From Candidatus Zipacnadia bacterium (GTDB lineage Bacteria > Armatimonadota > Zipacnadia > Zipacnadales > JABUFB01), in assembly GCA_029821745.1 (NCBI GenBank), contig JALGSS010000006.1, positions 1 through 39,774 of the forward strand: a stretch of 39,774 nt of DNA. Direction: 5' to 3'. The translations under genes and the position numbers were made by a program. The notes below the pieces were generated by a model, which was given only the letters and a program-made list of their open reading frames with translations, did no database searches and had not been told where the DNA came from. This document shows positions 2,379 to 22,279 of this stretch, in pieces (within the stretch, counting starts at the first letter, position 1; the number at the start of each line of letters is the position of its first letter).

Positions 2379-2751
2379 TCTTCACGCACAGCCGCTTGCA
2401 GCCATCACCGGTAACGACGGCAGCCCCTCCGCCCGACAGGGCCCAGGAGTAGGGCTGCCGCTTGCGTTCTGCTCTCGCTTTCCCGTGGCAAAAGTGTCTC
2501 GAATTCGGAAGTTACGCCAGGCCTCATAGGCGTTACTACCCAAGATGAGAGATGCCTGGGTGAACCTAGCCTCGTGGTCCGGGACAGCGAACCTTCGAGC
2601 CCCGCTCCACGTCAATACGGAAGCGACGCCTTCCGCGAGAAGTCCCCGCTAGCGCGTGACGGATGCGGCCGAGGGATTTGGCCATCCGATGCATTCACAG
2701 ACACGATTCCGGACATGTTGAGGCACAATCCGAATAGGAGGCACTGTACCA
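2379..2751. other. Intergenic region between trxA and htrA
   Basis: This 373-base stretch has no convincing gene. It holds the hairpin at 2418-2460 and the htrA ribosome-binding site AGGAGG at 2736-2741. The reading frame entering from 2574 continues out of frame into htrA and does not resemble a protein. I see no promoter with good -35 and -10 boxes, although htrA should have one here. Confidence 0.5.
2418..2460 (+). terminator. Long GC-rich hairpin after trxA, probable terminator
   Basis: Nine bases at 2418-2426 pair perfectly with 2452-2460. Inside, CTCC 2427-2430 pairs with GGAG 2446-2449 and GCCC 2431-2434 with GGGC 2439-2442 around a gaca loop, leaving only small bulges. There is no U-run after it, so it is either a GC-driven terminator or an mRNA 3'-end stabiliser. 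Confidence 0.5.
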
Positions 2752-5091: not shown

Positions 5092-5389
5092 CGTCAAGAC
5101 TCGTGTCTATAGGCTGCTCTGGCGGCAAGGGATCACTGCGCCCACAGTGAGAGGGTGGAGCAGTAAGCGACGTTCTGTGTTTGGACGCCTAGGAAGTATG
5201 CCAAATGCAACGTGCGTGAGACGCCCGCTTCCGGCCGTGTTGTTGGAAGAGGCGTTCAGTGTGCGTCTGTTTGGCTGTTAGGACAAGAACACAGGCAGCA
5301 GAAGACAGCGTTCTCAACAACGGCCGGGTCTCGGGGTCAGACGGGGATTGCGTAGGCGAGCGGACGGGGATCTGACCACGCAACAGCCG
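5092..5389 (+). ncRNA. Long structured 5' leader of the protein A gene (possible cis-regulatory RNA)
   Basis: No protein is supported here. Several local hairpins are visible. CTGCTC 5114-5119 pairs with GAGCAG 5158-5163 and encloses TCACTG 5133-5138 / CAGTGA 5145-5150. GCGT 5214-5217 / ACGC 5221-5224 closes a three-base loop. CTTCC 5228-5232 / GGAAG 5245-5249 sits directly against GGACGCCT 5183-5190 / AGGCGTTC 5250-5257 (one G-U). Just before the ribosome-binding site, two stems interleave: 5335-5341 with 5371-5377 (7 bp) and 5348-5353 with 5378-5383 (6 bp). They must form a pseudoknot or exclude each other. I recognise no known riboswitch family. GC-rich sequence gives stems by chance, so the RNA role is an inference. 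Confidence 0.35.
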
Positions 5390-5395
5390 AGGAGG
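5390..5395 (+). promoter_or_regulatory. Ribosome-binding site fixing the GTG start of protein A
   Basis: AGGAGG lies nine bases before GTG 5405. The site begins seven bases after the interleaved stems of the leader, so folding of those stems could affect its exposure. Confidence 0.75.
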
Positions 5396-5404
5396 CAAAA
5401 GACT

Positions 5405-6964
5405 GTGCGTACCTCCAAGCCTCGAGTTCAAGACCGCGCACTGATCTCATTACTCCCGATTATTCTGGCAGCGGCGACGCTGATCCCGGTGGATCGGGTC
5501 TCGGCCGCAAGCATCGACGGGACTTGGGTCTGGCCGCCACTCGCGACCGCCAACTCCTGTCGCTGGGCCAGAGTGCAGGTGGGCCTCAGCGCCACCGAGG
5601 AGATCTACTCCTGCACCATCAGCGGACTCAGCGAGGCGGACGGCTACGCGCCTGGGTCGACCCTTCCCCTGAGGACGGTCGTCCAGTCCGGGACCAGCAG
5701 TGTCTACGGACGTCTGAATCAGGATACCACCGTCATGAACAGTTGGGGCCACAGCCCCAGGTTCCTGACAATCGGGCCCTTCTGCGGCAGGGCGAATGCC
5801 TTCAATGAGCGCCCCGCCGACTGGCCGTTCGTCGTCGGGTATGGCGGCTCCCCGGGCTCGAACACCACGCGGCCCACGAACGCGAATACCTACTATGTCA
5901 CATTCACCATCCGCACCTACAACACGGACAGCGGCGAGGTCTCCGACACCGTTCTAACGAGCCAGCCCGGTTACCGAACCGTACATGACAACGACGACTA
6001 CCTGGACTGGAACCGCCCGGGCCCCGGCGGGACGACTATCGACCCGATCAGCGTTGGGCCCGTAGAGGTCCTCGCCGACAGCGGCAGTGGCAGTTCAGCC
6101 TACAAGTTCCGTGTCCGCTATACCTCCGGCCTGTACTCCGGTCTGAACCTGCCTCCTCGGTGGCGGACCTCGGAGGACTTTCCGCCCAGCAGTTACGACA
6201 ACTCCTTCTACGACCGCGCGCGGGGATGGCCGTCACGTCGCAGCGACCCCGACTCAGTGACCCAGTTCAACTGGCTGTACGGCCGCACCACAGACCCGTG
6301 GCTGGACCAGGTGGGTTACGCTCGAAGCGAGTATGACCAACGCGGCGCCACTGAGCCACAGGTCCTCCTGGTTATTGACGGCCAGCACTGGGCGCCACAC
6401 TACATGATGCCGGAGGACCCTGCCGACACCACGTATACCGATGGCGCCATGTTCACGTACACGGTACGTCCCACTGACTACCTGAACTTCATCGACAACA
6501 TCTTCCTGTTTCCCTTCGACCTGCCGGGGCAGGACGCGTGGGACAACTACGCCGTACGTCTGGCCGGCCGGCCGGCCTCAAACAACTACGTATCACTCAC
6601 CGCCGGCCCACACACGTATGAGTTCTGGGCCACTGACGACTTCGCGCCAGTCGGTAACCGCGGCTGGGTCCAGGTAGGGTGGCCCGGCAACGACGCCCAC
6701 GTCGAGTACCTGCACCGGGTGGCCCCCGAAGCCCGCCGAGTGGACGGTCTGCGCTCCGGCGTACACCGCAGCCGCCAGAGCGTGTACAACCAGCAGCAGG
6801 GCGGGCCGGAGTACAGTTGGACGAACATGCGCCGGTTCGGCGATACCTCCGTCAACCAGCCTGACCCCTACGGTTACACGCTTAAGTCCCACAACGCGCT
6901 GTCCGACAGTGACATCCCCTCCGACCTGGAGGCCCTGGGCAGCTCAACGTCAATCCCGTCCTGA
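5405..6964 (+). CDS. Giant surface protein A, N-terminal part (gene split by -1 frameshift)
   Basis: 519 residues from GTG 5405, set by AGGAGG at 5390-5395. The N-terminus is a signal peptide: basic residues, a hydrophobic core ISLLPIILAAATLI, and a likely cut near RVSAA. The rest is beta-rich, Asn/Asp/Tyr/Gly-rich sequence without recognisable catalytic residues. It contains one copy of the repeat found in the downstream part: FRVRY near residue 230, VLLVIDG, then DTTYTDGAMFTYTV, then HTYEFWATDD. The frame ends at TGA 6962-6964 after about eight non-homologous-looking residues. In the -1 frame, coding-like sequence continues from about 6940 into the next entry. I read the two as one gene for a secreted protein of about 2400 residues. 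Function is unknown; adhesion or matrix roles are guesses from composition. Confidence 0.8.
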   Translation: MRTSKPRVQDRALISLLPIILAAATLIPVDRVSAASIDGTWVWPPLATANSCRWARVQVGLSATEEIYSCTISGLSEADGYAPGSTLPLRTVVQSGTSSVYGRLNQDTTVMNSWGHSPRFLTIGPFCGRANAFNERPADWPFVVGYGGSPGSNTTRPTNANTYYVTFTIRTYNTDSGEVSDTVLTSQPGYRTVHDNDDYLDWNRPGPGGTTIDPISVGPVEVLADSGSGSSAYKFRVRYTSGLYSGLNLPPRWRTSEDFPPSSYDNSFYDRARGWPSRRSDPDSVTQFNWLYGRTTDPWLDQVGYARSEYDQRGATEPQVLLVIDGQHWAPHYMMPEDPADTTYTDGAMFTYTVRPTDYLNFIDNIFLFPFDLPGQDAWDNYAVRLAGRPASNNYVSLTAGPHTYEFWATDDFAPVGNRGWVQVGWPGNDAHVEYLHRVAPEARRVDGLRSGVHRSRQSVYNQQQGGPEYSWTNMRRFGDTSVNQPDPYGYTLKSHNALSDSDIPSDLEALGSSTSIPS

Positions 6965-7005
6965 CCGCGCACCCGTTCTTCGGGCTGACGCACCGCGAGG
7001 GCGGA

Positions 7006-10000
7006 ATGACTACGCTGCTGCCGTCCCTGAACGGCACTTACGGTACGCCGGATTTCAGCACCGTCTGGAGCAGCAGCGATCCCATCGTCGCAGGTGGGTA
7101 CATCGACAACGATATTCCGAACAACGCCGCCATCCCGGGCGGGGCGATCGGCGCCAACCCCGACCCGTTTGCTCCCGAGACCGGGGTAGGCCCGGTCGAC
7201 CCGTGGAAGTACACCAATGATGACACGATCTTGCCGAACTTTGCGAATATCTGGAACGAGATCTCGCCGACGCCCTTCCGGGGCGGCAAGTGGACCGCCA
7301 GCACGAACTTCACGTTGCGGGTGAACTACTGGCACTCGGAGAACGTTGCGCCGCGGTTCATGCGTGTGTACATCCGCCGCAACGACCCGGACAGCACTCC
7401 GGGGGCGTGGTTCTCTTACACGATGGAGAAGGCGAGTCCGGCCGACAACGACTACACGGATGGCTGCGTGTTCCAGTACCAGGCCACCCCTGACCAGTTG
7501 CCGACGGCCTCGTCCCAAATGGGTGGCGGCATCGGGGAGTACAACTACTACTTCGAGGCCATCGACTCGACGCGCACGGCGAGATTCCCGGACCGCCCGG
7601 ACCGATACACCTTCCGCGATGAGAACAATGCGCAGCGAACTCTCGATGACCCGGGCGACGTCGGCGTACCTGTCAACGCCACCGGGCAGGACTACTACTG
7701 GTTCCGCGTGAATCAGAAGCCAATTCTCGAGAACGCGTCGGTCACTCCGACGGTGGGGAACACCGGAGACCCCTTCACCTTCCGCGTGACCTACCGCGAT
7801 GCGGACGGAGAGGCAAGCGTTGCCGGGGCCCTTGGCGATCGCCCCTTCATCGCCTACATGTACGTCGACATCTTCGGCGACCTGTACGGGACGAACTCGC
7901 TGTCGGTGGACCCGGTCAGCGAGTCTGAACTGAGCTACACGAACAGCACCGCCCACACCTTCACCGACAACGAGCTGGCGGGCCTGTACGTGGTCATGGA
8001 GGACGGGGCCGCCGTGCGTAAGACTTACCGGATCGTTAGCAACAGCGACACCACTATTAACCTGGTGGCCGACCCGAACGATCCGGACCACCCGGGGCTC
8101 TTGCAGACCGACGGCGCGGCTTCCGGCGACGTGTTCTACATCGCCCAACGGACCGCAATGGCCAAGGAAGACTCCAGCGACGACGACTACACCGACGGCG
8201 TCGTCTACGTATTCAACACGGGCACCAACATCATCCTGGGGCCCGGCAACCACCGGTACTTCTTCGAGTTCGCCGACGACTGGGGCAGCTGGACCCACCC
8301 GAATGACACCAACGTCCATGTCGAGGGAGAATACGTCCGCTTCCCGAACGCGCTGTCCTTCGCCGGCCCTCAGGTGATTGCGAACACAGCGCCGGAGCTT
8401 GTGGACTTCAGGTTCCTGCCGCAGGATGTGGGCAACGCGCCGGACGGCAGCACGTCGACGCCGTTCATCTTCTACGTCACCTACGTCGACCAGGAGAACA
8501 ACGCGCCCAGCTTCATCCGGCTTGAGCTGGACGGGACGACCACCCTGAACCTGTTCCCTGACGATCCGGGCGACACGGTCTACACCGACGGCGTGGTGTA
8601 TCGTAGTGCGGAAATCCAGTTGACCGAAGGCCAGCACTTCATGCGGGCCCAGGCGTCGGACGGCGAGGAGCGCTACCCTCCCCAGACGGCCTACCCGCCC
8701 AGTTCCCCGCTGCCCTTCATGGGGCCCGTGGCGAGCGTATCCGACCCAGTAGGCGCCCTGACCCTCGACTACAGCGTGGGCGGCAAGGTATTCCCGGACG
8801 GTCGCTTCGACGGCGGCGCCGGGATCACCATCCGGATGCTGGACGGCAGCGCGGCGGGGAATGTGTACACCATCGCGTCGAACGCCGGCTCAACACTCAC
8901 GATCGTTGACGACGCTGTTCCTCCGGCCCCGGCCGTCAACTTGGGCGGCGAGGGTGTCACCGCGGGTGACCACTTCATTTTCGACGCCGCCCCCGGTCCG
9001 AAGGTGGCGGCGAATACGTCGCCTCGGCTGGTCTTCCCGGATGACGACGACGAATACGACCCCGATCCGACCAGCCCGCAGTTCCCGGGGCTCGAGCCCG
9101 ACAGCGGTGTGCCGTCCGACCCGGCCTCAGGCACCCAGGGAACCGAGTTCACGTATACTGTCATCTACATCGACGATGACCTGTTCGCCGGCGTGCGAGG
9201 CAATCCGCCGACATATGTTCAGGTCTACATCGACAATGTCGCCCACGACATGCAGCCGGTCGACCCCAGCGACTCCGATTACACCGAGAATGGTGGCGGG
9301 GCGGAGTACACGTACACCGCGCCGGTGCCGCCGGGGCTGTCCGAGGGCACACCGCATACGTACTTCTTCATCGCCTCCGATGGGCTGGATACGGCGCGGC
9401 TCCCGGCTCTCGGCACTCTGCCGAACGACCGCTACAATGGCCCGATCGTGGACGGCCGACCCGACAACCCGGAGCAGTTGTTTGTCTTCGACACTCCCGA
9501 CGACAACGGCGATTCCATCCAGTTCCGCTTCAATGCGTCCCTGGATGACGGCGGTGGGGCCGACGACGTCGTCGAGTACCACCTGTACCGCAACGAGACG
9601 GGCGCGCCCTTCGCCGATCCGCCCGTTATCGTCATTGAGGCGGACAATAAGCCCTCGTACGCGGGCATTGATCCGCCGCCGGGCATGGACACGGGCCTGC
9701 AGAAGGCCGTGCCGTACTACTACATGGTCCGGGCGTACGATGGGCCCACCATCGATGCCGACAAGGACGGTCTGCCGGACAAGCTGCCGGACGACGGCGA
9801 TCCAGCGACGCCTGACCAGTATGTGCCGATCGACCCGCTTGATCAGTCCTTCGACTCCAACGTGGAGGGCCCGGTCAGCGCGGACGACAACATCTCGCCC
9901 GGAGCCCCGACGTTCCTGAATGCGGTGGATCCGGCTGACGGAGGCATCATCGACCTCAACTGGGGCCCGTCACCGGACGACGGTGCGGGCTACGGCGACG

Positions 10001-12669
10001 TCATCGAGTACCGCCTGTACCGCGAGCTCGACGCGGCCGACCTGGGCACCAACGCGCCGCTGTACTCACCGCTCGCGGGAGCGACCGAATACCGCGACAT
10101 GTCTGTGACGGACGGTACCGAATACTACTACGCCATCGCCGCGTGGGACGGCGTCAACGAGTCCGATCTGACCGCCGCGACGCCGAGTCCGGTGACCTCC
10201 AGTGACGCGGCGCCGCCGGAAATCCTGAACCTGAGCCCCGACGACGGCGATGCCGATGTCGCGCGCGACACGAACATTGAGTTCGATGTCCGCGACACGG
10301 GCGCCGGCGTAGACATTAACTCGCTGCAGCTCATCGTCAGCGTGAACGGGGTCCCGACGACCATCGACCCGGCGGACCTGACCATAACGACGACCGGCGA
10401 CACAAGCCATGTGGTCTATGACCCGCCGACCGACTTCGAGTACCTCGTGGCCATCCAGGTGCACGTCGAAGTCAGCGACCTTTCCGGCGACGCAACGGCT
10501 GACCCGATTGTGCCGCCGAACACGAGGACGCTGGACTACCGGTTCACGATCGCCGGCCCGCCGGTCTATGAGATCGAGGGCACCATCATCGCCCCCGACG
10601 CGCTCAAGGCCGAGGATCCCGACGTGCTTGAGGGCATCACGGTCCGCGCGTACCCCGTGACCGGTGGCTTGTTCATCGATGCCACTACGGACGCAGCGGG
10701 CAACTACGTGGTCGAGGGTCTGGCCGAGGGTGACTACTATGTGGTGCCCAGCAAGCCTGGCCTGGCGTTCACGCCGGCCCAGAGCGTACCGTTGCATGTC
10801 CCGCCGTCCCCACAGCGCGCTGACTTCACCGCGCAGAAGGGATACACGATGGTCGGCAGCGTGACGGACACGGACGATGCCCCGCTGCCGGGCGTGCGCG
10901 TATCGAACGGAGTCCGCGAAGTGACAACGGCGGCCGACGGAACGTACCAGATCGAGGACGTCGCCGCCGACGAATACACCCTGGTCGCGCAGCTTGATGG
11001 GTACGCTTTCGAGCCGCAGACCCTCAACGTCACCGTGCCGACCGACCCCGCCGACCCGATCGTGAACGTCCCGACGTTTGTCGGGGACGTTGAGCGCTTC
11101 TTCGTAAGCGGCACGATCTTGGCCTCGGACGGGTCACGCCTGGAAGACATCGTCGTGGAGTTGCTCGACCAGGACGGCCAGCCGGTGGCCTTCGAGGACC
11201 CAGCGGGACAGCCGATTGTGCACCGCACGAACGCGAGCGGCGCGTACTTCATCGACGGTGTGGCGGGTGGTTTCTACAGCGTTAAGCCCGGCGATGTCGA
11301 CTGGGTCTTCAATCCGGCCCAGCGAGATGTGAATGTTACCGGCAACACGCAGGACATCGACTTCACCGGCTATGAGGTATACAAACTGACACTGTCGCCA
11401 GGCCTGCAGATGGTCGCGATACCGGTGGTGCCGCAGAATCTGAACCCGGTGATGAATGTGCCCGCCGGGGTCGATGTGGCGCGCTGGGATCCGACAAGGG
11501 CCGGCGACGACAAGTACATCAAGGGAGACCCCGGGTCCCCGCTTCCGGTGCAGTACGAAATGACACCGGGCCGCTCCTTCTGGCTGCGGAACAACACCGG
11601 TGCCGACGCGCAACTGACGATCCAGACGCTGCAGCCGGTGGATACGAGCATCGACTTCAGCCTGAGCCTCGAAGGCGGCTGGAACATGGCCGGGAACATG
11701 CTCGACCGCTCCCTGCCGTGGAGCGCCCTGCATATATCGCCCGGACAGTCGGTTCGCGACTACGGGTTCCTGCATAACCCGCAGGGCCCAGACCCGTATA
11801 TCATCGTCACGGATATGCTTCCGCCGAGTGCGGACGGCACTCTCACGGACACCGTGCCGAAGAACGCGGGCTTCTGGATAAAGGCCGATCACAAGCAGGT
11901 CGTGACCGTGGCGACAGCGGGCCTCGCGGACGCCGAGAAGCCGTCTCTGAAGCTCAGCGCCGGCGACTACTTGGTCCCGATTGTTGTCCGCGCCGATAAT
12001 CGCGCAGACAGCCTGGGCCTGGCCGGCGTGGTGCAGGGCTCCGACGACAGCCTGCAGATCGAGAATCCGCCGGCCCTCTCGCCATTCGTTGACCTGTACT
12101 TCGCGAATAGCGATGGCGGGCGTCTGGCGTGCGACGTGCGCTCCGCGAGTGCCGGCAGCGATACGTGGGACTTCGTCGTGGCGACTGATATGGTCGGAGC
12201 GACGGTTGAGCTCGCGCTGCCTGACTTGTCGGGGGTGCCTGCCGAGAAGTCGGTGACCCTCGTCGATCAGGCCACAGGCAAGCGGCTGTATGCGCGGACG
12301 CTCGGCGTGTACAGCTACGCGGCCGACGAGAGTGGCACGCGCAAGTTCCGTCTGGAGATCGGTCCGAAGACTGAAAGTGGCCTGGTCGTCAGCGCCGCAA
12401 CTGCCCGACAGACCGGTACCGGCGCGGCCGTTGCATACACGCTGAGCACGGACGCGAATGTGACGGTCACGGTGATGAACATCTCCGGTCGTGTGGTGCG
12501 TGAAGTGGGAGGCGGGGCCGCAACCAAGGGCGCCAACACGGTCGCGTGGAACCTGCGGTCGCAGAGCGGGACTCGCGTCCCGTCTGGTCGCTACCTGGTG
12601 CGCATTGAGGCCGAGGCTGAGAACGGCCAGGTCGCTTCGTCGGTTACTGGCCTGCAGGTAAGCCGCTAG
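7006..12669 (+). CDS. Giant surface protein A, C-terminal part (multi-domain beta-sandwich protein)
   Basis: 1887 residues from ATG 7006, but coding sequence in this frame reaches back to about 6940 with no start codon and there is no signal peptide, so it is probably the continuation of the previous entry. Domains in order: about four copies of a repeat marked by YTDG-type motifs (residues about 90-810); fibronectin-III-like segments (about 829-920 and 966-1065); a Big_5-type Ig-like domain (1067-1184); three carboxypeptidase-regulatory-like repeats (1186-1280, 1281-1355, 1364-1455); a two-lobed domain with GWNMAGN (1460-1643); a domain with IENPP, LPDLSGVP and TGKRLYAR (1645-1788); and a FlgD-like Ig domain (1790-1887) with NISGRVVREV and PSGRYLVRI, ending in VSR. 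No catalytic motif is seen. The whole C-terminal 700 residues match protein B in order. The Shine-Dalgarno-like GAGGG before 7006 is weak. Confidence 0.85.
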   Translation: MTTLLPSLNGTYGTPDFSTVWSSSDPIVAGGYIDNDIPNNAAIPGGAIGANPDPFAPETGVGPVDPWKYTNDDTILPNFANIWNEISPTPFRGGKWTASTNFTLRVNYWHSENVAPRFMRVYIRRNDPDSTPGAWFSYTMEKASPADNDYTDGCVFQYQATPDQLPTASSQMGGGIGEYNYYFEAIDSTRTARFPDRPDRYTFRDENNAQRTLDDPGDVGVPVNATGQDYYWFRVNQKPILENASVTPTVGNTGDPFTFRVTYRDADGEASVAGALGDRPFIAYMYVDIFGDLYGTNSLSVDPVSESELSYTNSTAHTFTDNELAGLYVVMEDGAAVRKTYRIVSNSDTTINLVADPNDPDHPGLLQTDGAASGDVFYIAQRTAMAKEDSSDDDYTDGVVYVFNTGTNIILGPGNHRYFFEFADDWGSWTHPNDTNVHVEGEYVRFPNALSFAGPQVIANTAPELVDFRFLPQDVGNAPDGSTSTPFIFYVTYVDQENNAPSFIRLELDGTTTLNLFPDDPGDTVYTDGVVYRSAEIQLTEGQHFMRAQASDGEERYPPQTAYPPSSPLPFMGPVASVSDPVGALTLDYSVGGKVFPDGRFDGGAGITIRMLDGSAAGNVYTIASNAGSTLTIVDDAVPPAPAVNLGGEGVTAGDHFIFDAAPGPKVAANTSPRLVFPDDDDEYDPDPTSPQFPGLEPDSGVPSDPASGTQGTEFTYTVIYIDDDLFAGVRGNPPTYVQVYIDNVAHDMQPVDPSDSDYTENGGGAEYTYTAPVPPGLSEGTPHTYFFIASDGLDTARLPALGTLPNDRYNGPIVDGRPDNPEQLFVFDTPDDNGDSIQFRFNASLDDGGGADDVVEYHLYRNETGAPFADPPVIVIEADNKPSYAGIDPPPGMDTGLQKAVPYYYMVRAYDGPTIDADKDGLPDKLPDDGDPATPDQYVPIDPLDQSFDSNVEGPVSADDNISPGAPTFLNAVDPADGGIIDLNWGPSPDDGAGYGDVIEYRLYRELDAADLGTNAPLYSPLAGATEYRDMSVTDGTEYYYAIAAWDGVNESDLTAATPSPVTSSDAAPPEILNLSPDDGDADVARDTNIEFDVRDTGAGVDINSLQLIVSVNGVPTTIDPADLTITTTGDTSHVVYDPPTDFEYLVAIQVHVEVSDLSGDATADPIVPPNTRTLDYRFTIAGPPVYEIEGTIIAPDALKAEDPDVLEGITVRAYPVTGGLFIDATTDAAGNYVVEGLAEGDYYVVPSKPGLAFTPAQSVPLHVPPSPQRADFTAQKGYTMVGSVTDTDDAPLPGVRVSNGVREVTTAADGTYQIEDVAADEYTLVAQLDGYAFEPQTLNVTVPTDPADPIVNVPTFVGDVERFFVSGTILASDGSRLEDIVVELLDQDGQPVAFEDPAGQPIVHRTNASGAYFIDGVAGGFYSVKPGDVDWVFNPAQRDVNVTGNTQDIDFTGYEVYKLTLSPGLQMVAIPVVPQNLNPVMNVPAGVDVARWDPTRAGDDKYIKGDPGSPLPVQYEMTPGRSFWLRNNTGADAQLTIQTLQPVDTSIDFSLSLEGGWNMAGNMLDRSLPWSALHISPGQSVRDYGFLHNPQGPDPYIIVTDMLPPSADGTLTDTVPKNAGFWIKADHKQVVTVATAGLADAEKPSLKLSAGDYLVPIVVRADNRADSLGLAGVVQGSDDSLQIENPPALSPFVDLYFANSDGGRLACDVRSASAGSDTWDFVVATDMVGATVELALPDLSGVPAEKSVTLVDQATGKRLYARTLGVYSYAADESGTRKFRLEIGPKTESGLVVSAATARQTGTGAAVAYTLSTDANVTVTVMNISGRVVREVGGGAATKGANTVAWNLRSQSGTRVPSGRYLVRIEAEAENGQVASSVTGLQVSR

Positions 12670-12675
12670 AAGCTA

Positions 12676-12708
12676 ACCGTCAGCGCCGCGTCCCGCGGCG
12701 CTGACGGT
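12676..12708 (+). terminator. Perfect hairpin after protein A
   Basis: Fifteen bases (12676-12690) pair perfectly with 12694-12708 around a three-base loop, seven bases after the stop codon. It lacks a U-run, so it may be a terminator, an attenuator between A and B, or an mRNA stabiliser. Confidence 0.6.
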
Positions 12709-12769
12709 CGCCGATCAGCCGTAACGCGCAATCGTCCACAACTGGTTCGTACCCGGAGGGCTGGGAGTT

Positions 12770-12783
12770 GGGGAACGTTCCCC
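12770..12783. promoter_or_regulatory. Perfect 14-bp palindrome upstream of protein B
   Basis: GGGGAACGTTCCCC lies 52 bases before the B start codon and outside the preceding hairpin. A perfect even-length palindrome of this size is the form expected of an operator for a dimeric regulator, but no regulator or promoter boxes are identified here. Confidence 0.35.
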
Positions 12784-12835
12784 TGCGCCCCACCGCACTT
12801 GCTGCACTGTGTCGCACCTCCGAGGAGGAGATTCG

Positions 12836-15800
12836 ATGTCACACTCGAAGCTTCGACCCACTTGCATCCAGAGCATTCTGGGCGCGATGCTGGCCTTGCT
12901 GATAGCGCTGTCTGCGACGAGCGCGCAGGCGCGACTTATCAACATCAAGGTCGGCGATTCCCGCCGGCAGGCCGTCAAGTTCGAGCAGGGGAAGGTGGGG
13001 GTCTCGGGGGATGCCGTTGAGCGGTGGATGCGCAGCCAGGAGCGCGAGAAGAAGGTCCGCGTCATCGACGACCTGCAGTTGCCCGAAGGCGCGATCCTCG
13101 ACTTCTACACGGTGCGCAACTCCAACGACCCGGCGGAGCGGGTGGAGTTCGAGGGCCGGGGGCAACTCATCGACGCGTACTCCTACCTCGGGAAGCACTA
13201 CAAGCAGATCCTCTTCGGCCTGGTCAACACCGAGGAGCGCGCCGAAGCCATCAAGCTTCTGAAGCAGGCACGGGACCACGGCTTCATGGTGGTGCCCGCG
13301 GCCGGCGGCGGCCTGCTCCCGGGGCGCGTCGGCACGGCCTCGGTGCAGCAGATGAAGGTCATCGTTATCGCGCCGGAGTTCCCGCATTGGAACGACCCGC
13401 GGCCGACTGCTGCGGCTACGCGGAGCAGGAACGGCACGTACTACCTGACGGGCGGGGACTATGAGGCGCTACGCCAGCACCCGATGGACGGGAACAACCA
13501 CGCCTGGGAGGGCGCTGATCCGCCCCATTGGTTCGCGGACTCGCCGGGCGGAACGCTCTCTGCGGGGTGCCCCATTGGTATGGCCGGAACCGCCGGGTGG
13601 TCTGGGTCGGCGACTGCGACCTCCAACGCCTCTCATCCCAGAGCGGGCGGCGAGACGGGCACGAACTCGAAACCCGAGATGACGCTTCAGAACGACTGGT
13701 TCAACCTCGTCTTCAACAAAGCCAACCCGATGTCGCTGTACAACTACTACTACCAGAACTCCCACGGTCACATCAGCATTGAGGGAGACTACAGCAATAT
13801 CGTCGGCTGGGTGCACGACCACCATATCCTGGACCGGGCGCCTTATCCATTCGGCACGCACTACGCCGTGCAGCCGGGCACGCCGCTGCTGCGGCCCCAA
13901 GACCCGACCGGACCGATGATCGTCCGGGCCAGCCTGTACGCCGAAGGCGTCACCTTCTTCTTCCGCCAGCCGGTCGGGAGCCTGGGCACTGTCACAGTGA
14001 GCGTCTACCAGAGCCAGGACATCGACTCAGTTACGGCCGACACGCAGACCGGCACGGTGTCTCTCATACTGACGGGCGACCGCGTTCAGGACCCGTGGGA
14101 TAACCGCCGCTGGACCGTCCTGAACGGCGGCTGGGAGTTTGTCGATCAGGGCGACGCGACGAAACGCATTGATTACGAGCTGGTGTCGGGGGGGAGTTGG
14201 AGCGCGACGGCCGCGGGCGGTACCTGGAACAGTAGTAGCACGGGGTATCGTGGCCAGGGGCAGGGCTGCGGCAACCTGAGCAATACGACCTTCGGCACGA
14301 ACGACGTTCTTGGTTCGGCGGACGGTAACCGTCTCCTGAGCTTCTGCTACTACACCCACGACCACAACTTCGGCGGCGAGAGCGCCTACCAGTTGTCGAC
14401 GCTGATGCGGGGCAGCTACACCGACCCGATCGCGGGTACGTCTGAGGGATCGCACGTCGACCGACCGTGGCCTTACGACCACGACACGACCGACCACAAC
14501 TACCCGAACAGCGGGAATGTGTTCTCAGGCGGGCCCCACAGCGTGGGTGCTCTGCGAGGCGACGTCTACCAGACCCTGGCCGATCGGGGCATCACCACGA
14601 GCGGCTACAACCGGATCATTTTCCTGTTTCCTGATGCCGAACAGTCCGAGGGTGACCCGAACGCATCCATCATCCCCCACGCGGGCGGCAGCACGGCGAC
14701 CGTCCCCGAGGGAGCCGGCCTCACGCTGCTTGCGCACGAGGTGGGACATACCTTCGGTACGGTCGACCTGTACGACAAGGACTTCTACGCGAACCTGGGG
14801 GCCTACGGCCCTCCGCCGGTGCCCTTCTTCTTCGAGTGTGCGGCCGTGGGTCCATACTCTGTGATGGCCCATGGGGTGCGCATCGATCCGTGGCACAAGC
14901 TGAGGAATTTGGCCCTGGGCCCCTGGGCGCAGGAGACGCCGGTTACCCAGGACCTTGGGCGCACGGAGATATGGCAGGTCGAAACGACCCTGCGGGACCC
15001 GGTGATCCTGAAGTTGCCGGCGCACCCGCTGTCCGTCTACGCGAGCAAGAACCCGACGGCCCCGGCAGGCTGGACGCTTGGGCAGGGAAACTGGGACAAT
15101 CTCGCTAATCCCAATTCATGGCGCGAGTATTTCCTGGTTGAGAACCGCAACGTAAACGGTGGAAGCTACTTCGGCGATCAGTCACCGAAGGGCATGTACA
15201 TCTGGCACATTGACGAGCGGAACATCGGCGGTAATCAGACTGCCGAAGAGACCATGACGGTCATCATCGAGCAGGCCGATGGGCGCAATGAGCTGGAGAC
15301 CAACGGGTCGCGCACAGTCGGGGGCGGGTTCAGCGCATCGCCGGGCGACCTCCAGGGCGACCCCTTCCCGGGCTCCCTGAACGTGAGGAAGTTCGACGAG
15401 CGGCCGGTTGCACTCAACAATGGGTTCAATTCGCCGACGAGTTGGAGCCATGGCGCCCCGGACACCGGCGGCAGCACAATCCTGCCCGGCACACCGACGG
15501 ACTCCTTCGTCCGCATCGAGAACATCACCGGCCCGGCGACCAATGACGCCGGCATACCGAACGCGGCCGGCAGCCCGATGAGCGCCTACATCTATGTGGA
15601 GCCTGCCGAGGCCATCTGCACGCAGCCCGCGTCGCTCATCGCCCCGGGGACCCAGGTCGAGCAGGGCACCGAGGACTTCCCGGTGATGCTCCTCAACATC
15701 GAGAACGACGGGACCTACCCGAACCTGTCGACCAAGTCTCTGACGATCGACACGATCAAGGTCTACGAGGTCGGGACGAGCCGTGACGCCGAGAACATCG

Positions 15801-18800
15801 CGGTTGCGAAGCTGTACGAAGACACGAATGATAACGGCGCCCTCGACGTCGGTACCGACACGCTCCTGAAGACGGCGACGGTGGTCGACAACCAGACGAG
15901 CGCCGACTTCGACCATATCCTGTTCACCAACCTTGGCTATGTGCTGAACCTGAACAGCGACCAGAACTTCATCGTCGCCTACGACATTGCAGTGGACGCC
16001 GACACAGACCCCCGGATTACTTTGGGGGCGGAATTGACAAAGTACGACTTCGTGGTACCCAACCAGCCCGGCGCCGTGCAGATGCGGCAGCGCCTCGCCG
16101 CAACGTCGCTCGAGAGGGCCGGGTATGAATTCGGCGCGTATCGATTCCCAATCACCGCGAACACCGCGACGGTGATCGAATCCAGCGACACGCTGACAGT
16201 GAAGCGCAACGACGACCCAGATCTCGCCCCAGGTTCAGTTGTGCAGGGCGAGGCGGACGTTCCGATGATGCAGTTGGCCCTTTCGGTGGATCAGGACCAG
16301 GTGACGGTCAACGCCATAAAGGTCGCCCAGATCGGGACCTCCGAGGGCGGTGTCGATCTCTCGGTCTTGCGCTTGTGGCCCGATGCGAATGGCGACGGCC
16401 AGATCGATGACCTGACGGTCCCACCCCTCGGCGAGGCCGCCGTGATGGGACCCTCCGGCAACGGTGAGGCCAACATCACCGGTCTAAGCTTCACGGTGAC
16501 GGACGCCGCACCGAAGTACCTGATCCTGACCGCAACGGTAACGCCGAGCGCCACTCTCAACGCTACGATCCAGCTCGCGGTTGAGGACGCGTCTATCACC
16601 GTCGAGACCAACCCTCTGGATCCGACTTCGTCCCACGACGTCGTCGTATACGAGTTGCCGATCGAGTCCGGTGTGACGACGGTCACCCAGGGCAACCTGC
16701 CGCCGTATCCGGTTCCGGGTGACCCGGGCGACGACACCGGCCCCTACTACGGCGACTGGCTGCCGACCAACAACGAGCAGACAGACAACCCGCAACCGTC
16801 GATGCAGTTTCCTCGGGCAGGTGGCGACCCCAACCCGCCGGACCCGAACGCGACCGACACTGCGGACACTCTCAGTTACGTGGTCCAGTTCAGCCAGGAC
16901 GAATTTGCGACGGCGCCGTTCCACGAACAGACGATCGCGCCTAGCTCGAGCTTCACCCAGGTTGTCAACTTCCAGGTCAGCGTACCCCTGGCCGTTGGCA
17001 CGTGGGGCTGGCGCGTGAAGGCTGTTGACGACGAAGGCGCGGAATCCGACTGGTCGAAGACCTGGTTCTTCGAGATCACCCAGCCGCCGCTGCCCCCGCA
17101 GCCACCGAACGCACCCACTCAGCTCTGGCCCCGGGGTGGCCAGGAAGTGGCCGAGCCGAACCCGGTGATCTACTGGGTGCCTTCCACCGACCCGGACGAC
17201 GTTCCCGAAGACCTGAACTACGTCATTGAGCTCGACGACAATGACGACTGGACGGACGGCAACCTGTGGGAGGGCGCCGCGGCCGGTACGGACCTCCTGT
17301 CAGGCCAATGGGTGAACGTAAACGTGATCCCGGCCCAGCCGCTGGCTGACAACACGCAGTACTACTACCGGGTCAAGGCCATTGATCCCGACAACCAGGA
17401 ATCGGACTGGAGCGCGACGCAGAACTTCTGGCTGAACACGGAGAACGACCCGCCGCTGGCTCCGGACACCGGGTTCAGCCCGAGCAACGGCGACATCATC
17501 TGGTTCTCGCCGGTCAACGTGCGCTGCAACCACACGGTTGATCCGGACCCGACGGATCCGACATGGCCGGGCGGCCCGTACCTGAGTTATGTCTTCCAAC
17601 TCCAGCGAGACTCGGCTCCGACGGACACCAGCTACACCTACCAGTACACGGTGGTAGCCAACACGCCGCCGAGCACGGACCCGTTCGTGTCCGCACTGGT
17701 GACGGGCGATCTCGGGGCGGACGACCCCACGCATGAGCATCCCTGGTACTGGCGCGTCAGGGCCTTCGATGACGAGGGCGCAGAATCGCCCTGGAGTGAG
17801 ACCCAGTACTTCTACTACGACACAGCGAACCAGCCGCCGACGTTGTCGCCGGTCAACACCTACCTACAGACACTCGATCCGAAGTATGGCAACATCGTTC
17901 CGCCGACCCACTTTGAGTTTGAGATCGTCTACGCGGATCCGGAAGGCGATGCCCCGGTCGATGTGACCAACGGCGCGGACACAGGCGCGGTCTGGGTCGA
18001 GATCGATGGTGACCCCAACAAGCGGGTCCCGATGGGCAAGCTCGACGAGACCGACAACAACTACGCGAACGGCGTGACCTACGTCGTGGGCATGAACGCC
18101 GACAACGCGGCTCTGGGCATCGGTGGGCACACATTCCGCTTCTACACAGCAAGTTGGAGTGTGCAGTGGCCGCCTGTGTTCGATCCATCTCCGACCTTCC
18201 CCAGGTGGGGTCTGGGCCCGATCATCGGCACGGACAGCACATTGGAATTCACGGACGCCGCATGGGACCCGACGGCCATTCCGTTGCCCGGGTTCCCGCC
18301 TGACCCGATCCTCGAAAAGGGCTATGAAGAGGGCGTAGACGTGATCAGCGTCCAGTTGTTCGACGAGGACAAAGCGGACGAGACCCAGGTCACGGTGACG
18401 CTTGCGACCGATCCAAGCCGGCTGTTCACGGACAGTGAGATGCTCATTCTCACGCCGGCGGCCGGCGAACCGGCGGGCACTTTCCGGGGCCAGATGGCCA
18501 CCCTTGGTCGCCCAGAGCAACCCGGCGACGCAGAGAGCCAACTGCCCATCGGCGACCCGGGCCGCGTCCTGAATGTGATGTGCGGCGCCAACGGCAACGT
18601 CATCACAGTTACCTATCAGGACCCGGACGAGGGCCCCGACTTCCCGCCGAGCATGACGCGGGACATCAGTGTGGACAGCGCGCTGGTTGTTGACAGCACG
18701 CCGCCGCGGTTCATCGACACCAACCCCATTCTCGTGGTGTCCAGCGGCGCAAATCCCTATGGCAACAGCGACGGGTTGACCATCGACGTGACGTGGGTCG

Positions 18801-21800
18801 ACTACGTGCAGCCCGGCCCGCCATCCGACCAAGTGGACATTGCGGGATACGAGGTGTATCTGAGCGCGACCGCGCAGTTCACGGTGGAAGCGGGCGTTGG
18901 CGGCGGAGTGACATTCAATCCGGCCGGCTCGGCGATTCTCGTCAGAGACTTGCCTGCCGGCGCCACCCAGTACACCATCTCGAACAACGATGCCGCACTG
19001 GGCGCTGCGGGCATCACCATCCAACCGGGCCAGACCTACTACGTTGCGGTTGTGCCGTATGACGAGGTCCCGAACCGGGATCTCCCCGCCAATAGCGTCG
19101 CGGTCTCCACACTGGATGACCAGGCTCCGGTCCTGTCGAACGCCAGCCCGGCGAACGGCGAGGTCGAGGTCGAGCTCGGCACGCCGATCGCGTTCAGCCT
19201 GTCCGATCCAGGCACCGGCATCGACGAGAGCACGCTCGTCGTCAACGTGCGGCGCGCGTCGAGCGGTTCGCCGGCTGATACGGGCACCTGGTACCCGATA
19301 ACCGGTGACTCGGACTGGCAGATGACCGCGAGCGGAATCGGGACCGACCGGAACTACTCCTTCGCGTATGCGCCGGCCGACCCGAACGCGCCTGATTTCT
19401 TCTCCCTGAACCAGCGTGTGGAAGTCCAAGTGATCTGCGATGACAACCAGGGGAACCGCCTGGACAGTTGGAACCCGGTGGTGCCCTTCACACGCCAGTT
19501 CACCTATGAGATGAAAGCCGATCTGACACCCCCGTGGGTGGAGAATCAGAGCCCGGCTCCGGACGCAATGAATGTCCTGCCGAGCACGCCGATCACGTTC
19601 ACGGTGCTTGATGATATCGCGGGTGTGGACTCGGCCACGATCCAGCTTCTCGTCAACGGCAACCCCATTGACGCCGCCGCGGGGCTGCTGATCGATGCCA
19701 CCGATCCGCTGGCAGTGAAGGTCTCATATCCGGCGCCGACCGCCGACATCGTCCCATGGGGTCAACAGACCACTGTTCAGGTGTGGGCGACCGACAAGGC
19801 CGGCAACGCCATCCCGCCGGGGCTACCGGTCGTGTGGCAGTACGAGACACAGGCTGACGCGGTGGCGCCTGAGGTGGCCATCGACACGCTGATCCCGGCG
19901 GCAGACGAAACGAAGGTGCCGATCACAACGCCGATCAGCTTCAGGCTCATCGATGCGCTCTCCGGCATCTCGAAGGATGCCACTGGTGCGTACGAGGTCG
20001 CCGTGTACATCGACGTGAACAACGGCGGCGAGACACAAGTACCGGCTGCGGAACTCAACTTCAGCGGCACGGCGCGTAGCCTGAAGGTCGACTACCAGCC
20101 GCTGCAGCCGTTCAACTACAACGACCAGGTGAAGGTGCGGGTCGTTGCCAATGACGGAGCGGGCAACCCGCTGGCCGACGAAGATCCGGTGATCGGCGCC
20201 GATAACGGGTTCGAGTGGCGCTTCACCTGTGCGCCTCCGCCGACCTACCGCATCGCCGGAACGATCGTTGATCAGAGCGGTCTCCCGCTGCCCGGCGTCA
20301 CGGTCAAGGTCTGGCCGGACGGCGGTGACCCGGCAAACGCCGACATCGTGAAGACAAATGGGAATGGCACTTACATCTACGAGCTCGAACTGGGTGGAGA
20401 CTTCACCTTGATGCCGGAGCTCGCGGAATACACCTTCGACCCGGTTCAGCGTCAGGTCTCTGTCAATGGCGCGGACGTCATGAACGAGAACTTCACCGGG
20501 GCCTTGCGGACCTACAGCGTTAGCGGTCGCGTGATCGAGAACAACGTGGGTCTGGCAGGCGTTACGGTGAGCGCCGGCGGAGACATTACCCCGGCAGTGA
20601 CTGACGCCGACGGCTACTACACCATCACTGACGTGCCGAGCGGACGTTACACCGTCACGCCGACCCTGGCGAACTACACCTTCCGGCCCGGACTTCGCAG
20701 TGTGGTCGTCGAGGGCGCGGATTCTGCAGATGTCGACTTCGAGGGCATCGCGGACACCTACTCCATCTCGGGCACGGTGCGGGACTTCGACGGCAACCGC
20801 ACCAAGGGCGTCCTCATCTCCGATGGTACGCGGAGCACGATCACGAACGAGAGCGGGGAGTTTACTCTGAGCGATGTTCCCGCCGGAACGGCGACGCTGC
20901 GCGCCAGCAAGGCAGGCCTCAAGGTCGTGCCGGCGACGCAGGACGTCACGGTGCCGCCAAACGCGACGGGCATCGCTTTCACCGCCTACATCTCGTTCGC
21001 CAACAGCTTCCCGGTCGGGGAGAGTGTCCTGAACTTCATCGGTGTGCCCTGCTATCCCGCAGATGACGATGCACTTGCCGTGTTCGGCGCTGACGCCACC
21101 GTCTGGCGCTGGAACCCGAACGGGACACCTGCCGCTTACGTTAGAGCAGGAGTGGGCGGGAACCAGGACGTGGTTGATGTCCAGGCGGGGCGCGGGTTCT
21201 TCGTCCAGTTCGATGCTGGTAGCGTGGAGATAGCCGGCCGGCCGGTCAGCACAGGGCTTCCGTTCACCATGGCTCTGGGCCCGGTCTGGAACATGGCTGC
21301 GAACCCGTTCACCAACGCCCTGCCGTTCGCGAACATCAAGCCGGCGGTGGCCGGCTCGGTCCGCAGTTACTGCTACGCCTACGACGCAGTATCCTGCGGA
21401 TACGTTCTGATCTCGGAAGTGCCGGGGGTCAACGTCGGACGAACGGAGATCTACCCGTGGGAGGGCATCTGGCTGCGGACGAATGGCGGGTCGGCGACCG
21501 CGAATGTCGATGCGCCGACCGGCACTACCGCCGCTGCCGCCCCGCAGGCCCTCGAACTTGGCGCAGAAGGCTGGACGATCCCGATAGTGGCGCGCGCGGG
21601 CGGAAGCACTGACGCGACCAGCGCCGTGGGTATCGCGCCGGCCCTGGCGAGTCCGCTTGCCATTGAGAACCCACCGATGGCACCGCAGACCGTCGACGTC
21701 TACCTGACCGGTGCCGATGGCGCGTATCTGGCTCAGGACATCAGAGCGGCCGGTGCCGAGGGCGGCGCGTGGACCCTCACCGTCGTCACCGACATCCCGG

Positions 21801-22279
21801 GTGCGCAGGTACAACTGTCATTGCCTGACCTGAGTGGCGTCCCGAACGACAAGGCCGTCTATCTGACCGACCTCGGGACCGGCAAGCGTTTGTACGCACG
21901 AACGATGCCTTCGTACACGTTCAATGCGGGCCCGTCCGGCGCAAAGCGCGAGTTCAAGCTGCAGGTCGTACCGAAGGACGGCGCGGGTCTGGTCATCACG
22001 AACGCGGTGGCTTCGACCAGCCCAATAGGCACTGTGGTCACTTACAGCGTCTCGAAGGACTGCAAGGTCACGGCTGAAGTGACGAATATCGCCGGTCGCG
22101 TAGTACGCACGGTATGCACCGGCAAGGACGCATCCCAGGGCGTCAACAGCCTGAGCTGGGATATGACCAGCGCGAGCGGAACCAAGGCGCCGAGCGGCCG
22201 CTACATCATCCGCGTGACGGCCGTGAGTGAAGACGGGCAGCAAGTCAGCACCGTAACGTCCGCCATGGTCCGGCGGTAG
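12836..22279 (+). CDS. Giant secreted M6-family metalloprotease with multi-domain tail (surface protein B)
   Basis: 3147 residues. ATG 12836 has GGAGG at 12824-12828 and opens a signal peptide (hydrophobic LGAMLALLIALSATSAQA). The M6 (immune-inhibitor-A type) zinc site is HEVGHTFGTVDLYD: His634, Glu635, His638 and Asp644, with a Met-turn-like SVMAHG after it and the family's YIWHIDE segment. The usual M6 enzyme is about 600-800 residues. Here follow: two repeats with calcium-loop-like DTNDNGALD (about 994) and DANGDGQID (about 1182); three fibronectin-III-like units (1285-1660); one YxxG repeat shared with protein A (1680-1780); an unnamed domain (1822-1942); another fibronectin-like unit; three Big_5-type Ig units (2094-2465); three regulatory-like repeats (2471-2719); the two-lobed domain (2722-2899); the LPDLSGVP/TGKRLYAR domain (2906-3050); and a FlgD-like Ig (3051-3147) ending MVRR. 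It is expected outside the cell degrading proteins; the target is unknown. Confidence 0.9.
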   Translation: MSHSKLRPTCIQSILGAMLALLIALSATSAQARLINIKVGDSRRQAVKFEQGKVGVSGDAVERWMRSQEREKKVRVIDDLQLPEGAILDFYTVRNSNDPAERVEFEGRGQLIDAYSYLGKHYKQILFGLVNTEERAEAIKLLKQARDHGFMVVPAAGGGLLPGRVGTASVQQMKVIVIAPEFPHWNDPRPTAAATRSRNGTYYLTGGDYEALRQHPMDGNNHAWEGADPPHWFADSPGGTLSAGCPIGMAGTAGWSGSATATSNASHPRAGGETGTNSKPEMTLQNDWFNLVFNKANPMSLYNYYYQNSHGHISIEGDYSNIVGWVHDHHILDRAPYPFGTHYAVQPGTPLLRPQDPTGPMIVRASLYAEGVTFFFRQPVGSLGTVTVSVYQSQDIDSVTADTQTGTVSLILTGDRVQDPWDNRRWTVLNGGWEFVDQGDATKRIDYELVSGGSWSATAAGGTWNSSSTGYRGQGQGCGNLSNTTFGTNDVLGSADGNRLLSFCYYTHDHNFGGESAYQLSTLMRGSYTDPIAGTSEGSHVDRPWPYDHDTTDHNYPNSGNVFSGGPHSVGALRGDVYQTLADRGITTSGYNRIIFLFPDAEQSEGDPNASIIPHAGGSTATVPEGAGLTLLAHEVGHTFGTVDLYDKDFYANLGAYGPPPVPFFFECAAVGPYSVMAHGVRIDPWHKLRNLALGPWAQETPVTQDLGRTEIWQVETTLRDPVILKLPAHPLSVYASKNPTAPAGWTLGQGNWDNLANPNSWREYFLVENRNVNGGSYFGDQSPKGMYIWHIDERNIGGNQTAEETMTVIIEQADGRNELETNGSRTVGGGFSASPGDLQGDPFPGSLNVRKFDERPVALNNGFNSPTSWSHGAPDTGGSTILPGTPTDSFVRIENITGPATNDAGIPNAAGSPMSAYIYVEPAEAICTQPASLIAPGTQVEQGTEDFPVMLLNIENDGTYPNLSTKSLTIDTIKVYEVGTSRDAENIAVAKLYEDTNDNGALDVGTDTLLKTATVVDNQTSADFDHILFTNLGYVLNLNSDQNFIVAYDIAVDADTDPRITLGAELTKYDFVVPNQPGAVQMRQRLAATSLERAGYEFGAYRFPITANTATVIESSDTLTVKRNDDPDLAPGSVVQGEADVPMMQLALSVDQDQVTVNAIKVAQIGTSEGGVDLSVLRLWPDANGDGQIDDLTVPPLGEAAVMGPSGNGEANITGLSFTVTDAAPKYLILTATVTPSATLNATIQLAVEDASITVETNPLDPTSSHDVVVYELPIESGVTTVTQGNLPPYPVPGDPGDDTGPYYGDWLPTNNEQTDNPQPSMQFPRAGGDPNPPDPNATDTADTLSYVVQFSQDEFATAPFHEQTIAPSSSFTQVVNFQVSVPLAVGTWGWRVKAVDDEGAESDWSKTWFFEITQPPLPPQPPNAPTQLWPRGGQEVAEPNPVIYWVPSTDPDDVPEDLNYVIELDDNDDWTDGNLWEGAAAGTDLLSGQWVNVNVIPAQPLADNTQYYYRVKAIDPDNQESDWSATQNFWLNTENDPPLAPDTGFSPSNGDIIWFSPVNVRCNHTVDPDPTDPTWPGGPYLSYVFQLQRDSAPTDTSYTYQYTVVANTPPSTDPFVSALVTGDLGADDPTHEHPWYWRVRAFDDEGAESPWSETQYFYYDTANQPPTLSPVNTYLQTLDPKYGNIVPPTHFEFEIVYADPEGDAPVDVTNGADTGAVWVEIDGDPNKRVPMGKLDETDNNYANGVTYVVGMNADNAALGIGGHTFRFYTASWSVQWPPVFDPSPTFPRWGLGPIIGTDSTLEFTDAAWDPTAIPLPGFPPDPILEKGYEEGVDVISVQLFDEDKADETQVTVTLATDPSRLFTDSEMLILTPAAGEPAGTFRGQMATLGRPEQPGDAESQLPIGDPGRVLNVMCGANGNVITVTYQDPDEGPDFPPSMTRDISVDSALVVDSTPPRFIDTNPILVVSSGANPYGNSDGLTIDVTWVDYVQPGPPSDQVDIAGYEVYLSATAQFTVEAGVGGGVTFNPAGSAILVRDLPAGATQYTISNNDAALGAAGITIQPGQTYYVAVVPYDEVPNRDLPANSVAVSTLDDQAPVLSNASPANGEVEVELGTPIAFSLSDPGTGIDESTLVVNVRRASSGSPADTGTWYPITGDSDWQMTASGIGTDRNYSFAYAPADPNAPDFFSLNQRVEVQVICDDNQGNRLDSWNPVVPFTRQFTYEMKADLTPPWVENQSPAPDAMNVLPSTPITFTVLDDIAGVDSATIQLLVNGNPIDAAAGLLIDATDPLAVKVSYPAPTADIVPWGQQTTVQVWATDKAGNAIPPGLPVVWQYETQADAVAPEVAIDTLIPAADETKVPITTPISFRLIDALSGISKDATGAYEVAVYIDVNNGGETQVPAAELNFSGTARSLKVDYQPLQPFNYNDQVKVRVVANDGAGNPLADEDPVIGADNGFEWRFTCAPPPTYRIAGTIVDQSGLPLPGVTVKVWPDGGDPANADIVKTNGNGTYIYELELGGDFTLMPELAEYTFDPVQRQVSVNGADVMNENFTGALRTYSVSGRVIENNVGLAGVTVSAGGDITPAVTDADGYYTITDVPSGRYTVTPTLANYTFRPGLRSVVVEGADSADVDFEGIADTYSISGTVRDFDGNRTKGVLISDGTRSTITNESGEFTLSDVPAGTATLRASKAGLKVVPATQDVTVPPNATGIAFTAYISFANSFPVGESVLNFIGVPCYPADDDALAVFGADATVWRWNPNGTPAAYVRAGVGGNQDVVDVQAGRGFFVQFDAGSVEIAGRPVSTGLPFTMALGPVWNMAANPFTNALPFANIKPAVAGSVRSYCYAYDAVSCGYVLISEVPGVNVGRTEIYPWEGIWLRTNGGSATANVDAPTGTTAAAAPQALELGAEGWTIPIVARAGGSTDATSAVGIAPALASPLAIENPPMAPQTVDVYLTGADGAYLAQDIRAAGAEGGAWTLTVVTDIPGAQVQLSLPDLSGVPNDKAVYLTDLGTGKRLYARTMPSYTFNAGPSGAKREFKLQVVPKDGAGLVITNAVASTSPIGTVVTYSVSKDCKVTAEVTNIAGRVVRTVCTGKDASQGVNSLSWDMTSASGTKAPSGRYIIRVTAVSEDGQQVSTVTSAMVRR

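Follow-up and report, generated by a model that had tools for sequence, protein, structure and literature searches.

A domain of about 100 residues closes two large proteins encoded in the stretch of DNA analysed here (hereafter the window; 39,774 nucleotides of a Candidatus Zipacnadia genome). The same domain ends varied secreted proteins across the Armatimonadota, and it co-occurs and co-decays with a gene for a very large outer-membrane β-barrel. The best reading of these data is a sorting system peculiar to Armatimonadota that resembles type IX secretion (T9SS) and relies on a C-terminal domain (CTD). Type IX secretion uses CTDs together with SprA and shuttle barrels. Whether the last ~100 residues act as a C-terminal sorting signal, with the very large barrel helping to move proteins through or onto the outer membrane, we regard as evenly balanced. 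Under this proposal, tail proteins would cross the inner membrane via the Sec pathway, fold in the periplasm, present the FlgD-type CTD and, aided by the barrel, be moved across or onto the outer membrane, as in type IX secretion. If this is true, a second CTD system would be available, one with an evident partner barrel and with lineages that have naturally lost both components, CTD-guided export of folded proteins to the surface would have arisen or survived in a distant phylum, and a sequence rule for predicting Armatimonadota surface proteins would be at hand.

The features of the window that bear on this reading are the following:

5348 to 6964, forward strand: N-terminal part of the gene of protein A, in another frame, with a signal peptide (tblastn; signal-like stretch, hydropathy 2.62)
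7006 to 12669, forward strand: protein A, 1887 aa as read, with Ig/Fn3-like repeats, regulatory repeats and the shared tail
10562 to 11379, forward strand: three CarboxypepD_reg-like repeats of A ahead of the tail (Pfam PF13620 and SdrD_B stretches, residues 1207-1346; third repeat by eye)
11380 to 11919, forward strand: two-lobed GWN domain of A, without a Pfam or NCBIfam family (tail alignment; boundary approximate)
11956 to 12375, forward strand: IENPP/WPDLS/TGKR β domain of A, without a Pfam or NCBIfam family (tail alignment; AlphaFold2 pLDDT about 60-90 per 10-residue block; boundary approximate)
12376 to 12666, forward strand: FlgD_ig CTD of A, ending in LQVSR (PF13860 E 3.3e-9; CTD profile; AlphaFold2 pLDDT about 90)
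12809 to 22279, forward strand: protein B, 3156 aa, with a signal peptide, an M6-like metalloprotease region (TIGR03296 E 2e-8, below cut-off), Ig repeats and the shared tail
20282 to 20998, forward strand: three CarboxypepD_reg repeats of B (PF13620, three stretches; start approximate)
20999 to 21535, forward strand: two-lobed GWN domain of B (tail alignment; boundary approximate)
21536 to 21970, forward strand: IENPP/WPDLS/TGKR domain of B (tail alignment; boundary approximate)
21971 to 22276, forward strand: FlgD_ig CTD of B, ending in AMVRR (PF13860 E 2.5e-10; CTD-profile match E 1.5e-38)

Judging from the reading frames, protein A as annotated is without its start, the frame being broken at about position 6960 in this assembly: the 5348-6964 ORF and A are both covered by a single 2450-aa ORF in the sister genome G001 (tblastn). 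The break (5348-7006) is either a real frameshift or an assembly error. No secretion gene is recognisable within the window.

The last ~430 residues of the two proteins (A 1459-1887, B 2731-3156) share 37% identity (E 1.3e-70), which bears out the common C-terminal architecture claimed in the preliminary description. In both, the order is CarboxypepD_reg repeats, GWN domain, WPDLS/TGKR β domain and FlgD-like Ig domain. The three regulatory repeats said to precede both tails are scored as three stretches by Pfam in B and as two in A, where the third was placed by eye. All motifs that had been listed (W-N-M-A, IENPP, LPDLSGVP, TGKRLYAR, PSGRY and the ends VSR and VRR) are found in the translations, but the wording of IENPP, LPDLSGVP and TGKRLYAR is peculiar to A and B, the family-wide pattern of this middle domain being the looser '..PP', 'WPDLS..P' and 'TGKR.YMR'. 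Neither the GWN nor the WPDLS domain has a counterpart in Pfam or NCBIfam, in agreement with their having been called unnamed; they might be structural stalks or docking modules that usually accompany the sorting signal. Where GWN ends is indicated by the proteins encoded next to the barrel, several of which stop at HMM positions 170-184.

The last domain, described beforehand as FlgD-like, belongs to the known family FlgD_ig (PF13860), above the gathering cut-off in A and B (37-42 bits versus 27) and matched in 9/10 tails of the window's own genome (E to 1e-12). A search of PDB sequences with the tail returned FlgD and PorU C-termini for this domain only and nothing for the middle domains. 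In nine of the ten tails the CTD shows sequence similarity to the C-terminus of PorU (best E 2.5e-6). The T9SS type A model TIGR04183 (cut-off 23) gives 21.5 bits with the tail of A alone, 23.3 with the whole of A and 15 with B, and weak matches in six of the ten tails (best E 1.7e-4). The AlphaFold2 model of the whole tail is not confident (pLDDT 71), and a fold search with it yielded generic β-sandwich matches besides FlgD, PorU and PorZ.

The distribution of the tail was followed with a profile built from ten tails of the window's own genome, a 7.0-Mb metagenome-assembled genome (MAG) that is 88% complete; a first scan of the genome contigs with B's tail had found no relatives. In this genome nine tails are complete and a tenth is truncated at a contig end; further proteins carry the CTD alone. 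Three short ORFs of 158, 92 and 70 aa (L012 C241, L013 C799, L014 C1087) contain CTD pieces that look like broken-gene ends or assembly breaks. The cargo ahead of the tails comprises S8 peptidases (subtilases), PD40 propellers, the M6-like protease B, a dockerin protein and Ig arrays. Every complete tail protein begins with a signal-like stretch, and C-terminal transmembrane helices are absent from all of them. A sortase-type or PEP-CTERM-type tail was rejected, as there is no hydrophobic C-terminal helix and the maximum C-terminal hydropathy is 1.4. The own genome also encodes a PEP-CTERM-like protein and a weakly PorV-like barrel of ~386 aa directly after a tail gene (L019:2125-2793 and 2830-3990).

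The resemblance of the two tails far exceeds chance: the same three-domain tail is present in all four genomes of the family, with 8-16 profile matches in each, and in most of the phylum. Among 251 sampled Armatimonadota genomes, 238 carry some part of the tail, although weak distant matches can be a single domain, and 219 carry the FlgD part. The matches are strictly C-terminal and occur on a wide variety of secreted proteins from one lineage, as the profile check proposed beforehand had anticipated: among 82 distinct full tails, 70 run right up to the stop codon and 79 come within one residue of it. Arg is the final residue of 74 of these 82 tails; for other genes at the same loci the figure is 43/325 (13%). 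A binomial test gives p 1e-55, which exaggerates the effect because the tail sequences are related. The terminal Arg is also kept in tails with low identity to that of the window. Random positions inside proteins, or membership of well-known unrelated families, had been named as grounds against a sorting tail. The tail is never at random positions and its two middle domains match no family, whereas its last domain does match FlgD_ig. None of the papers searched describes such tails in Armatimonadota.

Testing the T9SS models exposed a candidate partner. In four genomes the SprA model gave one weak match per genome, each time to the same protein of ~1200 aa, and in two of the four a tail gene lies just downstream. 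A profile of this protein finds relatives in 193 of the 251 genomes; those with names belong to the Armatimonadota, for the most part as MAGs of Candidatus Zipacnadia or candidate division WS1. In a separate collection of named loci, the gene is followed by a tail-type gene, full or GWN-only, in 23/23 loci whose downstream sequence extends for 2 kb or more. Roughly half of these neighbours carry only the first (GWN) domain. Neighbours that end right after GWN, with the WPDLS domain and CTD lost and the barrel kept, were seen at L165, L171, L173-L179, L187 and L189.

AlphaFold2 models the candidate, with modest confidence (pLDDT 69, pTM 0.60), as a very large β-barrel of ~36 strands (DSSP count) that carries two small insert domains. 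Foldseek retrieved many large barrels (MtrB, SlpA, LptD and four SprA entries) with low TM-scores that are not decisive (0.31-0.33 by query for SprA), and a PDB sequence search with the barrel found nothing. When 26 barrels were scored with the SprA model TIGR04189, 18 gave a match, confined to one insert of ~85 residues (best E 7e-7, far below the cut-off).

The preliminary description had also proposed looking for co-occurrence with a particular secretion gene, and across genomes the tail does track this one outer-membrane barrel gene. Of the 251 genomes, 189 have both CTD and barrel, 30 the CTD alone, 4 the barrel alone and 28 neither; the barrel is thus found in 189/219 CTD-bearing versus 4/32 CTD-less genomes (Fisher p 5.6e-17, without correction for phylogeny). 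All 13 genomes without any tail are also without the barrel. Several of the thirty CTD-bearing, barrel-negative genomes, though not all, look like missed barrels; two that have the neighbour gene and an intact CTD (G135 and G186) probably are.

A more informative comparison comes from one family, f21, most genomes of which keep a single CTD protein, the ortholog of a protein termed C194b. That this family keeps the barrel with usually just one CTD protein counts against the sorting reading. In all 18 barrel-bearing genomes of f21 the CTD of this ortholog is intact, with an Arg end and 42.5-54 bits. Where the barrel is missing and no neighbour gene was detected (six genomes), the CTD has decayed to 23-42 bits or been deleted (0.3 bits), a difference in CTD score with p 1.8e-4; three of these tails still end in basic residues. 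On a tree built from the rest of the protein, with the CTD left out, the barrel losses fall in three separate places (G120/G194/G205/G231; G217; G198).

Similarly, in the barrel-negative families f12, f15, f39 and f40 the tails end with the WPDLS domain and have no CTD. Since tails without a CTD persist in barrel-less lineages, it is the FlgD-type end and not the whole architecture that tracks the barrel. The ~700-residue tail, originally treated as one unit, is thereby narrowed to its ~100-residue FlgD_ig domain. The CTD is also gone from several of the proteins encoded beside the barrel. The earlier suggestion of a secretion or surface-sorting tail is supported in part: C-terminal position, varied cargo, signal peptides, gene adjacency, and co-occurrence and co-decay with the barrel are observed, and from these we infer that the barrel may bind the CTD, that transport may follow and that the surface may be the destination.

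Some tail genes lie in a conserved cluster. In three genera of the window's family it comprises genes for a propeller with tail, a 635-aa exported protein, a C11-like peptidase, a subtilase with tail, C194b with its tail, a 367-aa protein and a 661-aa invasin-Ig protein, and reduced versions surround C194b in several other families of the phylum. Because it is kept in these reduced clusters across families, C194b is a candidate machine component carrying its own CTD, by analogy with PorU and PorZ, which carry CTDs and are docked to barrels in T9SS (PMC10202324). The 661-aa protein may be a barrel: it follows the C194b tail gene across several families (L017:5915-7900 and orthologs) and has an invasin-type Ig domain and a possibly barrel-like C-terminal half, LptD-like by eye only. 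A clostripain-family (C11) peptidase is encoded between two tail genes of the cluster (L017:15642-16808; L096:8948-10123); it was rejected as a sortase or core part since none was seen in the reduced f21 clusters. With the cluster taken as part of the machine, Armatimonadota could possess a secretion or display system of their own, in which a giant-barrel translocon recognises the FlgD-type CTD with its Arg end, apart from or distantly related to T9SS; we hold this possible, if somewhat short of an even chance.

The main rival reading takes the tail as a surface-attachment module: type II secretion (T2SS) would do the crossing, and the CTD would then anchor the proteins on the barrel complex or on a surface polymer. 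We think this unlikely, but the present data do not separate it from CTD-guided export, as C-terminal position, terminal Arg and joint decay with the barrel are compatible with both roles. No sequence signature of T2SS substrates is known. A gene that by eye reads as csaB, for a polysaccharide pyruvyl transferase, flanks the barrel gene in f21 (L153:5345-6412, L155:2211-3281), which hints at a link to a surface polymer. Published work reports T2SS genes in Fimbriimonas ginsengisoli (PMC4072686) and in some sediment MAGs (PMC10290634), and the docking of PorU and PorZ through their CTDs is a precedent for attachment.

It is improbable, and already disfavoured, that the tail is an ordinary chain of β-sandwiches that ends proteins by chance and owes its link to the barrel to nothing more than common descent and genome size. 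The FlgD_ig domain is widespread, CTD and barrel both follow phylogeny, for which the Fisher test makes no correction, and a few CTD-bearing genomes have no detected barrel. However, the three independent barrel losses within f21 coincide with CTD decay in an orthologous protein, the barrel gene constantly adjoins a tail-protein gene, and the terminal Arg is conserved where overall tail identity is low.

Direct membership of T9SS was rejected, its core proteins being below cut-off or absent in the genomes searched. SprA (TIGR04189, cut-off 200 bits) reached at most 24 bits, over one segment, in four genomes; PorV (NF033709, cut-off 90 bits) at most 23 bits in four genomes; PorU (NF033707, cut-off 420 bits) matched in its C25 catalytic part only (best 104 bits); and GldM had no match in ten genomes. 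Consequently, no energy source, shuttle or sortase is assigned from these four models, and we class the system as a CTD-dependent sorting variant rather than as T9SS. A secreted C25 (gingipain-type) peptidase that matches the PorU catalytic part, has no FlgD domain and is encoded away from the tail genes is present in each of the four family genomes (L210:996-2612, C729 of the own genome; L211:8804-10549; L212:8087-9751). A true but very diverged T9SS with an orthologous SprA, a PorV-like shuttle and a C25 sortase is quite improbable: the sole SprA-model match in each of four genomes is the candidate barrel, PorV_fam weakly matches barrels of 340-400 aa in 4/4 genomes, one of them clustered with a tail gene, and the C25 match reaches E 4.6e-30, but all scores lie far below curated cut-offs, GldM is missing from the genomes searched, the C25 gene is undetected in several tail-bearing genomes and does not lie near tail genes, and the barrel has about half the length of SprA.

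Among known systems of a similar kind is the T9SS type A CTD (TIGR04183/PF18962), with which the Armatimonadota CTD shares a length of about 100 residues, an Ig-like fold, a position at the extreme C-terminus of Sec-exported proteins, varied cargo and, as with PorU and PorZ, occurrence on conserved, possibly machinery-like proteins. The Armatimonadota CTD differs in having FlgD_ig as its best family, usually two extra conserved domains ahead of it and a place outside Bacteroidota, to which T9SS CTDs are reviewed as restricted (PMC10202324). The barrel resembles Sov/SprA in its very large size, with ~36 strands in the model, one shared insert segment and a gene beside that of a CTD-type protein; unlike SprA, it has ~1000 (850-1250) instead of more than 2000 aa, scores about 21 bits against a cut-off of 200 and is similar over ~85 residues only. 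The Ig domain of the FlgD hook cap (PF13860) is a clear sequence relative and fold match of the CTD, which is, however, the C-terminus of secreted proteins and not part of a flagellar FlgD. Finally, in the pairs of PorP/SprF shuttles and type B CTDs, substrate and barrel genes also lie side by side (PMC12618676), whereas the Armatimonadota barrel is unmatched by the family models run and combines one barrel locus with many tail proteins encoded elsewhere in the genome.
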